From Fibrobacterota bacterium (GTDB lineage: Bacteria > Fibrobacterota > Fibrobacteria > UBA11236), in the NCBI GenBank assembly GCA_947466585.1, contig CANIEU010000001.1, positions 1 to 48,413 of the forward strand: a stretch of DNA of 48,413 nt. The letters run 5' to 3'. Positions 6,481-13,272 of the stretch are shown piece by piece. The notes under the pieces were generated by a model. It was not told where the DNA came from. It ran no database searches and worked only from the letters and a program-made list of their open reading frames with translations. Within the stretch, counting starts at the first letter, position 1. Every line of letters starts with the position of its first letter. A program made the translations under genes and the position numbers.

Positions 6481-7728
6481 ATGACGCACGCCCCCGAAAA
6501 GAAACCGGTCCACGTTTTTACGGGCTATCAAAAGTTCGTGATTGCGCTGCTGGCGTTCCTGCAATTCACCATCATCCTCGACTTCATGATCCTTTCGCCT
6601 CTGGGCGCGATCCTGATGCACGATCTCTCCATCCCCACCGCGCACTTCGGTTGGGCCGTGTCGATTTATGCCTTCAGCGCCGGTACCTCGGGCCTGCTGG
6701 CGGCGGGTTTCGCCGACCGCTTCGACCGCAAAAAACTTTTGCTGTTCTTCTACAGCGGATTCATTCTGGGAACCTTTCTGTGTGGCATCGCCCCCAACTA
6801 CCCCATGCTGCTGGCGGCGCGCATGGTCACGGGACTGTTCGGCGGTGTGGTCGGATCGATTGCCATGGCGATCTCGGTGGACCTGTTTCCCCTATCGGTG
6901 CGCGGCCGCGTGATGGGCTTCATTCAGGCGGCCTTCGCGGCGAGTCAAGTGCTCGGCATCCCGCTCGGCCTTTACCTCTCCAATCTGTGGGGTTGGCATG
7001 CGCCCTTCTTGATGATCGCCGGCGTCGGCGCCGCAGCGGGCTTCGCCATCATGTTCTACCTGAGACCTGTAACTGCGCACCTGCAATTGCAGGCGCAGCC
7101 GAACCCGTTCCGGCACTTGTTCCACACCGTCTCCAAGGCGCGGTATCTGCAAGGGTTTGCCGCCACGACCCTGCTCGTCACTGGCGGCTTCATGCTCATG
7201 CCCTTCGGCAGTGCTTTTACCGTAAACAACATGGGCATTCCGTTTCATAAACTCCCGACCATCTACATGGTCACGGGATTGTTCGCGATCCTGGTCGGCC
7301 CGCTGGCTGGCAAACTCAGCGACAACATCGGCAAGTATGCGGTGTTCTGCGGAGGCACGATACTCAGCATGTTGATGGTGTTCATTTACACCCACCTCGG
7401 CAACACGCCGCTTTGGCTGGTGATTGTGGTGAACGTGGTGTTATTCATCGGCGTCTCGTCGCGCATGGTACCTTCGCAGGCGTTGATGTCGGCCGTTCCG
7501 GATGCCGCCGACCGCGGGGCCTACATGGCCGTGAACGCATCGATCCAGCAATTTTCGGGCGGCATCGCCGCGGGTTTGGCTGGCCTGATCGTGGTGCAAA
7601 CCTCTACCGGCAAATTGGAGCACTACGACATTTTGGGGTATGTGGTGATGGGAGCCATGACGCTCACCATGGGCATGCTGTACTTCATCCATCGGAGCAT
7701 CCAGCGCCGGGGATTCAAGACCGCATGA
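6481..7728 (+). CDS. MFS transporter, AraJ/drug-efflux-like
   Basis: A 415-residue inner-membrane protein with about 12 predicted helices and no long loops, as in the 12-TM major facilitator family. The loop 2-3 signature is GFADRFDRKKLLLFF (residues about 75-89), and the end of the first half carries LSVRGRVMGFIQAAFAASQVLGIPLG (about 140-165), typical of AraJ/YdhP-type efflux proteins. The substrate cannot be inferred. The ribosome binding site AAGGAAA lies 6 nt upstream. It follows a terminator and precedes the dihydroorotate dehydrogenase by about 80 nt. Confidence 0.85.
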   Translation: MTHAPEKKPVHVFTGYQKFVIALLAFLQFTIILDFMILSPLGAILMHDLSIPTAHFGWAVSIYAFSAGTSGLLAAGFADRFDRKKLLLFFYSGFILGTFLCGIAPNYPMLLAARMVTGLFGGVVGSIAMAISVDLFPLSVRGRVMGFIQAAFAASQVLGIPLGLYLSNLWGWHAPFLMIAGVGAAAGFAIMFYLRPVTAHLQLQAQPNPFRHLFHTVSKARYLQGFAATTLLVTGGFMLMPFGSAFTVNNMGIPFHKLPTIYMVTGLFAILVGPLAGKLSDNIGKYAVFCGGTILSMLMVFIYTHLGNTPLWLVIVVNVVLFIGVSSRMVPSQALMSAVPDAADRGAYMAVNASIQQFSGGIAAGLAGLIVVQTSTGKLEHYDILGYVVMGAMTLTMGMLYFIHRSIQRRGFKTA

Positions 7729-9072: not shown

Positions 9073-9981
9073 CTATCGATCGACCCCGAAGAACACCCTG
9101 TCTTCCCAAGTCATCTCAGGTTTCTCCGCTTCCAGAAATTTACGGCCACCGGTTCCCGCTTTGGAATCGAGCGCCAGCATCCTCCACTCGCGCCGCGAGC
9201 GGTCATCCAAACGCTTAGGCATTGCCGCGGCGAGCAAGACCCAATTGCTGTCGGTCGCGCGAAGCAGCATCTCGCGCACCTTATGCCGGTTGAATTGCTG
9301 CGCGTTCGCGAGCAATGGAACCAATCGCAACCCGTCGCGCAAGGGAGAATGCGCATCGAGAGCCCAGAGGCGTTGATGCAATTCCAACCCTTGTAAGGTA
9401 TCGAGACCGATCCAGAGCAACGGCAGATTGTCGGGGCGCGGCGAGGCGCCCAAGGCACGCACGGCCATACGGCGCACACTTTCGGAGGAGGCCCCGAGCC
9501 ATGGAAGCGCGACCGCACGAAAGGCGGTATCGGCCATGCGAGAGCCGATATACAGCCACTGCGCCCGCACGGTATCGTTGGGTGCCGACACCACGGCGCG
9601 CGCCAGCACGGTGCGCGGCAGCGGGTTCCGACCCGAGTCCGCCATCACCGTGAACAAGTGTTCCACATATTGACGCTGGCGCGGGGTGCGGTCGCGGGTC
9701 GCCGCGGCCACGAGATAGTCCAATGTCGCTGCGCCGGAGGCGAGCAGGATTTTCTCGGAAGAGTCGCGGGCGGATTGAAAGCGAGGCTCACCGGTGGCCG
9801 CCGTGAGAAACAAACTGTCCATGCGGGTGAACGTCAGCGTCGCGGACGCAGCGTCGCCGGCGCAGACCTCGACCGGAATCCCAAATATTCCATACGAAAT
9901 GGCGCAGAATGCAAATCCGGAAACGATCCCTTTTCGAAGGAACCGTGACAGTTGAAACTTCATTTTTTTTCTATTCGGCAT
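9073..9981 (-). CDS. Exported HEAT-repeat-like protein, unknown function
   Basis: A protein of about 302 residues with an N-terminal signal peptide (basic start, then IVSGFAFCAISYGIF, likely cleavage near VCAG). The mature part is all-helical with repeating pairs such as ALPWLGASSESVRRMAVRALG and LVPLLANAQQFNRHKVREMLL, like HEAT repeats, which form scaffolds for protein contacts. ATG 9981 overlaps the stop codon of the upstream gene (TAG 9971-9973), so the two are probably translationally coupled; ATG 9963 is the alternative and keeps the signal peptide. The partner is the 27-residue-repeat protein, and the pair is likely periplasmic or surface-exposed. I do not recognise a named family. Confidence 0.65.
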   Translation of the reverse strand: MPNRKKMKFQLSRFLRKGIVSGFAFCAISYGIFGIPVEVCAGDAASATLTFTRMDSLFLTAATGEPRFQSARDSSEKILLASGAATLDYLVAAATRDRTPRQRQYVEHLFTVMADSGRNPLPRTVLARAVVSAPNDTVRAQWLYIGSRMADTAFRAVALPWLGASSESVRRMAVRALGASPRPDNLPLLWIGLDTLQGLELHQRLWALDAHSPLRDGLRLVPLLANAQQFNRHKVREMLLRATDSNWVLLAAAMPKRLDDRSRREWRMLALDSKAGTGGRKFLEAEKPEMTWEDRVFFGVDR

Positions 9982-11848
9982 CCCACCCCTGCCCGTGTCC
10001 GCGTCGGATGCCGTCGTAGGTGCGCCACACCGCATTTTCCGTGGCGGCGGATGATTGCGGATACGCATCGCGCCCGCCGAGGTCCAGGAAGAAGCCGAGG
10101 CTTCCGCGATCTCGGCGCATGTCGCCGTGCCCCAGCGTCATCGCGGGGTTGCCCATTCCGTAGGCATCTTCTCCGGCAAAATCGACGAGCATGCCAAGAC
10201 CGTTCGCGCTGCCTGCGCCGGCGCTCATGTCCACGGCGCTGTCGCGATCGTCACCTTGCGCGTCGGCGAACAGGCCAAAGCCTCCGTCGTGCCCGCATCC
10301 TTGGCTCACGCCCTTGCTGACGCGCACGTCCTCACCGGCGGCGTCGAGCAGCATGCCCACCGCAAAGTGCACCCCAGCACCCTGCGCATATTGATGCGCG
10401 ACCAGACTGTCGTCGCCCGCATCATCCATCAGAGCACCCCACCCGAACCAATAACCCGCGCCCTGTCCGAAAATGTCCGCGGTATATCGATCCGCTCCTC
10501 CACGGTCCCACAACACCGCGATACCGCCGCCGTAGCGCGGAGCCATGCCGGTAGAAAATCCCTGGCTCATGCTGAGATAATGTTCGCGATAGCGGAGATC
10601 GTCGACGAACACCGCGCGCGACAAATAGCGGTCGTTGCCGCTCTCGTCCATCAACAGCCCGAACCCGAAGGAGGAGGAGGCACCTTGGGACATGTAGGCT
10701 GCGGAATAGGTATCGTCACCGTCACGATCCTGTAGAATGCCGATGCCTCGAAAGGCAAAGCCCAGGGCGGCGCAGCGCCCGGTGTAGGTATCGTTGCCCG
10801 CCGCGTCGAACAGGCGGCTGAAGCCGAGGATCGCCGAGCCGAAGGCAAAATCACCTCCGATGTACCGGTCGTCGCCTTGCAGGTCGGCGATCACGTGCAC
10901 CGACAGAAACGCCCCCGCCCCTTCCCCGGTGTCAGGCGCCTGGTAAGTGTCTTTCCCGGAGAGATCCAGCACCAGCAGCCAACTTCCCGGAACAACCGTG
11001 TCGGCATACACATAGCGATCGTTCCCACCCGGGTCGAATACGATGCCGTTCTCCAGTCGATGGACATCCGGTCCACGTGTCCCAATGGTCACGGGTACAC
11101 CCAGTTTTTTCAACTGCTGCAAGCGGGCGGTCACCGCCGCGATATCGATCTTCGGGTTGATCCCGGCCTTGTTCCCCTTTCTTTTCCCCCCGTTTTTGGT
11201 TTGATACGAAAGCAGATCCCCGAGCAGCCCGTCCACGGCGGCCGCAGCCTGCGCCAGTTGCTCCAGCGGCAGACGTTGCGCGAGGTGCATCACGGAATCC
11301 AGCGTTGCGTCACCGTGCACGCGGGAGATTTCGCGTTCGATCGGATTTAGCAGGGTGTCTTCGGTCTCGGGCCGAAACAGCGCCGGAGTTTCACGCAACA
11401 AAAAGGCGCGTTGATCGAGATCAAGAGGGCGCAGGTACGCCTGCAGGCTTTTCTCCAGAATCCGGATTCGAGACTCCGGGGAGCCGTCCTGCGCGGTGCG
11501 CGATCTGGGAAACGTCGCCCCAATCCACGGCCACAGCCCGTCGGCGCGCACCATTCCCGTCAGCCCAGAAGTCGGATCAGAAGGCGGATCGAAAGTTTCG
11601 GACAAAGTGTGTCGCAAGGCCGGAACCAACGTATCGGCGCTGCGCGGGTTGTGGAGCATGCGGAGCACCGCGTCGGGACTTTGGGGAGGTGGGCCCCGAA
11701 AATTCACCAACAAGTCGAAATCCCCGGGATCGAAACCGGCCGGCCCGGCGAGGCGGTGGAAAACGGTATCGACCGAGGCGAGCGTATCGAAAGCGCAGGC
11801 CCCTGAGTAAGAGGGGAAAAGGCAAAAGACCGTTGCCGCCACAGTCAT
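9971..11848 (-). CDS. Exported protein with twelve D..G.D.Y repeats
   Basis: A protein of about 625 residues. The N-terminus is hydrophobic (TVAATVFCLFPSYSGACA). A TTG at 11905, 8 nt after the upstream stop, would add a basic n-region and may be the real start. Residues about 30-260 are helical. Residues about 271-597 hold twelve modules of the form hydrophobic-D-x-x-G-x-D-x-Y, most followed by QGxG and GxGxL. Eight of the eleven spacings are 26-27 residues; the exceptions are 23, 33 and 47. This is a regular solenoid pattern, and the Asp/Gly-rich turns could bind calcium, which is inference. Modules 8-10 have lost the Tyr. It is followed with overlap by the HEAT-like exported protein and preceded by the SEC-C gene. 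No named family is recognised. Confidence 0.7.
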   Translation of the reverse strand: MTVAATVFCLFPSYSGACAFDTLASVDTVFHRLAGPAGFDPGDFDLLVNFRGPPPQSPDAVLRMLHNPRSADTLVPALRHTLSETFDPPSDPTSGLTGMVRADGLWPWIGATFPRSRTAQDGSPESRIRILEKSLQAYLRPLDLDQRAFLLRETPALFRPETEDTLLNPIEREISRVHGDATLDSVMHLAQRLPLEQLAQAAAAVDGLLGDLLSYQTKNGGKRKGNKAGINPKIDIAAVTARLQQLKKLGVPVTIGTRGPDVHRLENGIVFDPGGNDRYVYADTVVPGSWLLVLDLSGKDTYQAPDTGEGAGAFLSVHVIADLQGDDRYIGGDFAFGSAILGFSRLFDAAGNDTYTGRCAALGFAFRGIGILQDRDGDDTYSAAYMSQGASSSFGFGLLMDESGNDRYLSRAVFVDDLRYREHYLSMSQGFSTGMAPRYGGGIAVLWDRGGADRYTADIFGQGAGYWFGWGALMDDAGDDSLVAHQYAQGAGVHFAVGMLLDAAGEDVRVSKGVSQGCGHDGGFGLFADAQGDDRDSAVDMSAGAGSANGLGMLVDFAGEDAYGMGNPAMTLGHGDMRRDRGSLGFFLDLGGRDAYPQSSAATENAVWRTYDGIRRGHGQGWDAE

Positions 11849-11912: not shown

Positions 11913-13130
11913 TTAAAGGCCGAGGTGACTGCGCAGTGCCGAGATCGCATCACCCTGCAATTCGAGACGCGACAGTAGGGCGCTGAGACGGCGGCGCCCA
12001 AAGTCGTGGCGGCTCGCCTCGAGCGGAGATTCTCCGCCGAGGGCATCGTGCGGCGCGCGGGTCCACTCGTTCAAGCCGCCTGCTTCCGGCAATTGCGCCC
12101 TCTCAGAGGGAGTGGACGCATGCACGCGCGCGGGAGCATCGAGGTGATCACCGAGCCAATGGAAAACGTAAGGGCAATACGCTTCGTCGAGCAAGGTGAC
12201 GCGCAGCCATCCGTCGTTCTCGGCCTCCAATCGCGCCAACGTCAGCGCGCGGTAGCGCAACTCGAGACGCGTGGCATCGAGGGCAACCGCGCCGTCGGCG
12301 CGCAACTGCCGCGCAAGGTCTCCGCGCGCTGCGGCCGGCAACCGGAAGGAACGCGATGCGGCCATGGTGCGCGCCGGAATGCCCACGCGGGCATCGTACA
12401 CCGACTCGCGCCACAACCCGAGTACCAGCGCGCCGTGACGGCGCCATTCTTCGCATTGCACGTCGGGACGCAACCCCGCGCCCGATTTGATGCCGAGGTC
12501 GCGACACACGGCCCGAAGGCGATCGCGCAACGCCTCTTCGTGCCCGGCGGGAAAGGTGAGAATCGCAGGGTGCATCTGCTCGCGTCCGCGATAGGTCAGG
12601 ATGCGTCCGGCAAACACGCCGCCGGGCCCCGGGAGTTCGCCTCCGTGTTCCACCCGCACGGTGCGCCCCGTGTCGAGCATGGCGATGTGGGCGCGCGTCG
12701 CGTCGATCTCCAACACACGCCACAACCACAGCGGTGCCAGACTCCACTCGCGGAAGTCGTTGGCAAGACGGATGTTCTTCACTTCCACATCGCGAGCCGC
12801 ACGCAGCACCGGACGCGCATCGGAAAACTGCACAGAATAGTCCCAGAAAAAATTCGCCATCACGGCGCGGCCGTATTCGGGGTCAGCCATCAAAAGGTGA
12901 TGGGGATATTCTTCCTGACTCAACCTCTCCCAGTAGGCTTGGTAGAGGTTGCGCAGCGGGAAGAGATACATGTAGAGGTCGTGCAGATCGCGGCGGAAGG
13001 CCTCACGGCCGGCGGGATCGCTCCCTATGTTCCCGTCGGGAAGTCCCGGCTTGCTGTAACGCCCGCAACATTCCGCATAGGGCGCGGTGTTACCGCAAAT
13101 GCAGGAGTTCTTGAGCTTGACGGCGTCCAT
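11913..13130 (-). CDS. SEC-C zinc-motif protein
   Basis: A 405-residue protein whose N-terminus (residues 8-22, NSCICGNTAPYAECCG) is a SEC-C type zinc-binding motif, as found at the end of SecA and in many uncharacterised proteins. The rest is not recognised: a conserved-looking region with many Trp/Arg, no membrane segments. ATG 13130 is chosen because the SEC-C motif begins just after it and a TATCTT box (13138-13143) ends 7 nt upstream. Longer in-frame starts would translate the heptamer repeat (YYRLPT). The -10 box abuts the left arm of locus C, so any -35 element lies inside the repeat. Probably the first gene of an operon with the two exported proteins. Confidence 0.75.
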   Translation of the reverse strand: MDAVKLKNSCICGNTAPYAECCGRYSKPGLPDGNIGSDPAGREAFRRDLHDLYMYLFPLRNLYQAYWERLSQEEYPHHLLMADPEYGRAVMANFFWDYSVQFSDARPVLRAARDVEVKNIRLANDFREWSLAPLWLWRVLEIDATRAHIAMLDTGRTVRVEHGGELPGPGGVFAGRILTYRGREQMHPAILTFPAGHEEALRDRLRAVCRDLGIKSGAGLRPDVQCEEWRRHGALVLGLWRESVYDARVGIPARTMAASRSFRLPAAARGDLARQLRADGAVALDATRLELRYRALTLARLEAENDGWLRVTLLDEAYCPYVFHWLGDHLDAPARVHASTPSERAQLPEAGGLNEWTRAPHDALGGESPLEASRHDFGRRRLSALLSRLELQGDAISALRSHLGL

Positions 13131-13143
13131 GTGAAGTAAGATA

Positions 13144-13272
13144 GTAGGTAGACGGTAGTAGGTAGACGGTAGTGGAGATTTGATGCGAGGCATACCCGGC
13201 ATCACCCGAACCACCGAAAATGATCGGAATTAGAAAGGTTCCGCAACAACCTACCGTCTACCGTCTACCGTC
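13144..13272. repeat. Heptamer inverted repeat, locus C
   Basis: The left arm, 13144-13171, is GTAGGTA, GACGGTA, GTAGGTA, GACGGTA. The right arm, 13252-13272, is three TACCGTC units, the complement of GACGGTA. The spacer is 80 nt. Units are the same as in locus A, 13 kb away. The right arm contains the folC stop codon (13251-13253), and the left arm abuts the -10 box of the SEC-C gene. Confidence 0.85.

Follow-up and report, generated by a model that had tools for sequence, protein, structure and literature searches.

A conserved gene pair in Fibrobacterota and several other phyla encodes a predicted beta-solenoid protein and a HEAT-like partner

The window analysed here, a stretch of 48,413 nucleotides from a Fibrobacterota genome of 2.24 Mb that is 98% complete, carries a pair of genes on the same strand, here called A and B (Table 1). 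A is present as a single copy in this genome. Counted from ATG 11848, its product has 625 aa; the start is uncertain, being ATG 11848, TTG 11905 or ATG 11950. Initiation at ATG 11848 yields an N-terminus that is hydrophobic but has no basic stretch, whereas either of the other two starts gives a better signal peptide. The B reading frame is open from ATG 10068, and its better start is ATG 9981, which is preceded by the Shine-Dalgarno-like sequence AGGGGTGGG. An earlier note on this DNA had B overlapping the stop codon of A. This is the case for a start at ATG 10068 (98 nt) or at ATG 9981 (11 nt) but not at ATG 9963, from which there is no overlap; a 4-nt overlap is common in relatives.

Table 1. 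Positions of the genes and features discussed, numbered along the window.
Feature	Position	Strand	Basis
Upstream gene, N-terminal SEC-C-like C.C...CC motif	11913..13214	(-)	ORF list, neighbourhood
Gene A, predicted exported helical domain + 12-coil beta-solenoid	9971..11848	(-)	ORF list, AlphaFold2, 10/10 family genomes
Helical N-terminal domain of A, ~residues 27-250 (625-aa form)	11099..11770	(-)	AlphaFold2 secondary structure
Predicted beta-solenoid of A, 12 D..G.D coils	10049..11092	(-)	Motif count + AlphaFold2
Most conserved surface strip of A, residues 458-521	10286..10477	(-)	Invariant or nearly so, 51 homologues
Gene B, HEAT-like partner with predicted export, 302 aa (start ATG 9981)	9073..9981	(-)	ORF list, Pfam, start codons
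HEAT_2-like stretch in B	9400..9597	(-)	PF13646, E 4.4e-4, under curated cut-off

The earlier note had described A as twelve D..G.D.Y modules, mostly 26-27 residues apart, with QGxG and GxGxL between them. We counted the motif in A and in 10,000 shuffled versions of its sequence. D..G.D occurs twelve times in A, compared to a shuffle mean of 0.7 and a maximum of 6, at spacings of 23, 27, 26, 26, 27, 47, 27, 27, 27, 27 and 33 residues, and both QGxG and GxGxL were found between the modules. The full D..G.D.Y was found in nine of the twelve modules (shuffle mean 0.02, maximum 2), so that the description was slightly overstated for the tyrosine.

The structure of A was predicted using AlphaFold2. 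From ten rows, the window protein was modelled with a pTM of 0.71 as a helical N-terminal domain followed by repeating short strands. A fused A-B homologue (L056), modelled from 51 rows, had a mean pLDDT of 87, with a helical domain to residue ~230, strands every 26-27 residues at ~280-630 and an all-helical C-terminus of HEAT type from ~656. When the prediction was aligned to the sequence, each D..G.D turn was preceded by a 6-residue strand and followed by a 4-residue strand. The strands repeat regularly from coil to coil with a period of 26-27 residues, and A is predicted to be a 12-coil beta-solenoid, as had been supposed. Using Foldseek, the model of window A gave no match in PDB or BFVD at E<=0.001; its top weak matches were mixed, many of them solenoids, with adhesin and tailspike solenoids among those from PDB. 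The significant matches of the fused model were ARM/HEAT proteins.

B had been called HEAT-like. The window protein itself scored 20.9 bits against HEAT_2, below the Pfam cut-off of 27.7, whereas the fused homologues scored 45.8-98.6 bits, clearly above it. The assignment thus holds through the profile scores of the fused homologues and their ARM/HEAT structural matches, with the window's own B remaining below the cut-off. Besides the HEAT positions, B proteins share the specific N-terminal motif DSLF..ASSGE..F ... RERH, although the promiscuity of HEAT repeats means that a B profile can overestimate orthology. A signal-like hydrophobic segment was present in 51 of 57 A proteins and 48 of 54 B proteins, mostly with AxA-type ends and with few lipoboxes.

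Searches of the 51-row set against Pfam and NCBIfam gave no match outside the HEAT part, except for one marginal match of a single member to Pfam Big_3_5 (E 0.009). The helical N-terminal domain of A had no Pfam match, and the solenoid had none among PHROGs, PADLOC or PDB sequences. These results fit the idea of an undescribed system outside any named family. Membership of A in the RTX family was rejected, since PF00353 matched none of the 51 members at E<=0.01 and did not match window A at E<=10; pectate-lyase membership was rejected because there was neither a Pfam match nor a significant Foldseek match. A role in anti-phage defence was rejected as well, as window A and B had no PADLOC match and only HEAT-type models fitted the HEAT part of L056. 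The HEAT parts of seven fused members matched CpcE/CpcF/NblB models weakly, and identity of B with CpcE/CpcF or NblB was rejected on a score for L056 of 25.1 bits against the curated NCBIfam cut-off of 330 for CpcE. In the open literature on beta-solenoids, HEAT proteins, FCB phyla and novel protein families we found nothing describing the A-B pair, and it is not mentioned in passages of a study of novel protein families in FCB phyla (PMC9727166). The fold classes are known; the solenoid family and its pairing with a HEAT protein appear to be undescribed in the sources searched.

Of the 168 Fibrobacterota genomes, ten have A and the very same ten have B; all belong to the window's family (two genera), and in each the two genes are adjacent and on the same strand; the relatives are Fibrobacteria/Fibrobacteres MAGs. 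Other families of the phylum had neither gene, except for one marginal partial match (G003, E 0.004). A scan of ~85,000 species genomes, restricted to places with AHQYAQGA or SKGVSQGC, revealed 66 loci, including ones in Fibrobacteria, Zixibacteria, WOR-3, Eisenbacteria, Latescibacterota and Calditrichota. A profile built from a 51-row alignment (A3) detected the solenoid superfamily in 124/132 genomes of Zixibacteria, 19/20 of Eisenbacteria, 27/64 of Latescibacterota, 35/39 of Calditrichota and 115/147 of WOR-3, counts that take in B-less paralogues. Of the 124 Zixibacteria genomes, ~115 had a match better than 1e-140, where pair-form proteins score. The profile search, a check that the earlier note had proposed for the 27-residue module, found relatives in at least five other phyla and no named family. 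Collections of phages, plasmids and viral contigs contained no match, and a phage or plasmid origin was rejected.

In a maximum-likelihood tree the solenoids grouped largely by phylum, and the pattern suggests that descent has been mostly vertical. The ten Fibrobacteria came out together with full support, at the end of a long branch; the deepest joins are unsure because of long branches. The restriction to one family of Fibrobacterota may reflect either loss or a single transfer. True B-less paralogues lay together outside the main pair clade, beside two divergent Latescibacterota pair forms. B-less paralogues (L122, L134, L140, L126, L139, L124, L125) have the same coils and a degenerate site, and some genomes hold several copies, with three within 16 kb at L124. 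A further locus labelled B-less, L137, is probably mislabelled since it grouped with the pair form.

Of the 65 scorable loci, 53 have B immediately downstream of A and nine have the two fused in one open frame; the remaining three comprise two loci cut off by a contig edge and a fragmentary one (L092). Two more fusions were found in the Calditrichota group (L128, L129), and the many open frames of ~900-1000 aa in Calditrichota and WOR-3 suggest that there are others. The neighbourhood is thus conserved: in 62 of 65 loci the genes stand together, either side by side or as one frame, and fusion is found repeatedly. The earlier proposal of a two-part periplasmic or surface assembly fits the fusions and the predicted export of both proteins, from which we infer the physical contact of A with B and their location in the cell.

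We compared 51 homologues. The number and spacing of the coils were almost invariant, with zero indels between coils 3-4, 4-5 and 6 to 11, the 47-residue sixth module included. The same coil was on average 53% identical across proteins, compared to 33% between coils within one protein. This indicates that repeats have been neither gained nor lost since before the phyla diverged. The solenoid is strongly acidic, with a pI of 4.1-4.7 in 61 of 61 proteins and a median charge of -27 per 370 residues, and both Asp ladders (D1 and D6 of the D..G.D turns) are nearly invariant, suggesting that a bound cation is likely. Outside the scaffold, the invariant or nearly invariant residues include D416, R419, D458, Q462, Y466, W467, Q486, Y487, Q489, H494, K512, G513, Q516, C518, H520, D521, N549, R579 and W608. 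The most conserved strip of the surface consists of those listed from D458 to H494 together with K512-D521, including C518, H520 and D521. Cys518 is invariant in the 51-row set and present in six of nine further B-partnered rows. B-less paralogues keep the coil residues, H494 and D521 and have mostly lost D458, Q486, KGVSQGC and R579. The motif D...GQG..YW / QYAQGAG.H / KGVSQGCGHD / RR, kept with B and mostly lost without it, therefore tracks the HEAT partner.

The genes around the pair were also examined. The SEC-C-like gene immediately precedes A not only in the window but in all nine further genomes of the family, and it was not observed next to A and B in any other phylum; its C-terminus has a weak Xre/MbcA/ParS match, below cut-off. 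Elsewhere in the window, positions 6481-7728 encode an MFS exporter whose best NCBIfam match, the myxochelin exporter MxcK, scored 242 bits, far under the cut-off of 525. Many Zixibacteria loci (e.g. L065, L071, L073, L075, L059) have one to three tandem prepilin genes (PF07963, N_methyl) directly upstream of A. In several Zixibacteria loci an NtrC-type sigma-54 response regulator is directly upstream of the pair, and RNase_H_2 exonuclease-like and HDOD genes follow it downstream in this phylum. In Eisenbacteria (L042, L045, L048, L055, L057, L078, L094), a molybdopterin-binding, xanthine-dehydrogenase-like gene shares 4 nt with the start of A, an arrangement suggestive of translational coupling. 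The tatC gene is directly upstream of A, after an nrdR-like gene, in L038, L039, L070 and L135, with a 4-nt overlap in two of them, and a ComEC-like gene adjoins the pair in L135. Latescibacterota neighbours include ABC transporter, O-antigen ligase or sulfatase-like genes. Other neighbours are a Wzx-type flippase gene overlapping B and a TMEM260-like protein O-mannosyltransferase gene (L074), an O-antigen ligase gene (L130) and PMT_2 (L042). Because neighbours other than B differ by phylum, a single conserved pathway was rejected, and the context points to no consistent one.

Computation shows a repeat of fixed architecture, a predicted fold, N-termini resembling signal peptides, an obligate A-B neighbourhood and gene fusions. 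We propose, with slightly less than even confidence, that A and B form one exported two-part machine of the cell envelope, in which a cation-stabilised solenoid carries a site in coils 6-11 and is docked by its HEAT partner. A would be a beta-solenoid of fixed length, with Ca2+ or a comparable cation stabilising its Asp ladder (D1 and D6 of each D..G.D turn). One face of coils 6-11 would hold a specific site for a ligand or for catalysis, with D458, Q462, Y466, W467, Q486, H494, K512, C518, H520, D521, N549 and R579 as putative site residues. B, as a HEAT-like solenoid, would dock on A, and the specific function of this site would depend on it. Beta-solenoids are generally used for carbohydrates. 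From this use and from a few neighbourhoods (L074, L130, L042) we take an envelope glycan or lipid-linked glycan as a working guess for the substrate, at the strength of a weak inference; that glycan genes are common speaks against this lead.

A scaffold or adhesin of the envelope, with the solenoid as a spacer or binding rod, the HEAT partner as an adaptor and no catalysis, seems to us clearly unlikely. Surface adhesins typically have beta-solenoids that are acidic and perhaps stiffened by Ca2+ (RTX proteins), and the adhesin and tailspike solenoids among the weak PDB matches point the same way. However, coil number is near-invariant in the 51 homologues from several phyla, unlike that of adhesin repeats, A has no anchor or sorting domain, and the polar and aromatic strip is conserved beyond the needs of a scaffold and tracks B. 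The prepilins, sigma-54 regulator, RNase_H_2 and HDOD genes of many Zixibacteria and the ComEC-like gene of L135 would suit an accessory of type IV pili or DNA uptake, in which A and B work with prepilins in the periplasm. We regard this as quite improbable, since prepilins were seen next to A and B neither in the window nor in the loci inspected from Eisenbacteria, Latescibacterota and WOR-3, and the strong acidity of the solenoid is unfavourable for DNA binding.

It is very improbable that B is a maturation factor which acts on the Cys/His site of A, for instance by loading a cofactor there, as HEAT-type phycobilin lyases do. Such a role would make sense of the Cys518-Gly-His-Asp invariant in the 51 sequences and of the weak CpcE/CpcF/NblB matches in the fused members, but these matches are far under curated cut-offs and amount to generic HEAT similarity, bilin lyases are cytoplasmic whereas A and B look exported, and the cysteine is missing in three of the nine other B-partnered rows. 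The chance that A and B are two unrelated exported proteins merely sharing an operon is slimmer still. Neighbourhood alone never proves contact; yet the two are adjacent in 53 and fused in nine of 65 loci across several phyla while other neighbours change, and the motif is lost in B-less paralogues.

Returning to the two-part envelope machine, the pair recurs near-unchanged in several little-studied phyla without belonging to a named family and thereby marks a conserved cell-envelope system. The presence of the solenoid family in most genomes of several phyla, together with its near-invariant architecture, suggests that its role is likely to be basic. A wider claim, which we hold to be doubtful, is that the pair represents a new class of extracytoplasmic enzyme or receptor. 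It would combine a cation-dependent beta-solenoid of 12 coils, bearing a Cys-His-Asp/Arg site, with an obligate HEAT subunit, would have passed mainly by vertical descent through several candidate phyla of the FCB group, perhaps from their ancestor, and would serve a core envelope function in lineages whose genetics is hardly developed. The pair offers concrete residues to test and a minimal unit to express, and opens a way into the envelopes of uncultured FCB bacteria, which are poorly understood.

One close comparison is with the B-less paralogues of Zixibacteria, WOR-3, Calditrichota, Latescibacterota and Eisenbacteria, which share the D..G.D.Y scaffold and predicted export of A but are without an adjacent HEAT gene, have a degenerate motif and occupy a separate branch of the tree. 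The RTX beta-roll (PF00353) resembles A in its Asp-Gly turns (GGxGxD-like, here 'GGxDxY'), parallel beta stack, acidity and export. In contrast, A has coils of 27 rather than 9 or 18 residues in near-invariant number, no RTX secretion signal was seen in it, and it has a helical N-terminal domain and a HEAT partner. A also resembles the polysaccharide lyases and hydrolases with a right-handed beta-helix, in that conserved Asp, His, Arg and Tyr residues of its solenoid are in register on neighbouring coils, as they would be along an active-site groove. A differs from the pectate lyase superfamily in having Asp ladders at the coil turns and a link to a HEAT protein, and in lacking a significant sequence or fold match. 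B has the same HEAT_2-type repeat as CpcE/CpcF and NblB; this similarity is generic and below cut-off, and B differs from these proteins in having a predicted signal peptide and a solenoid partner.
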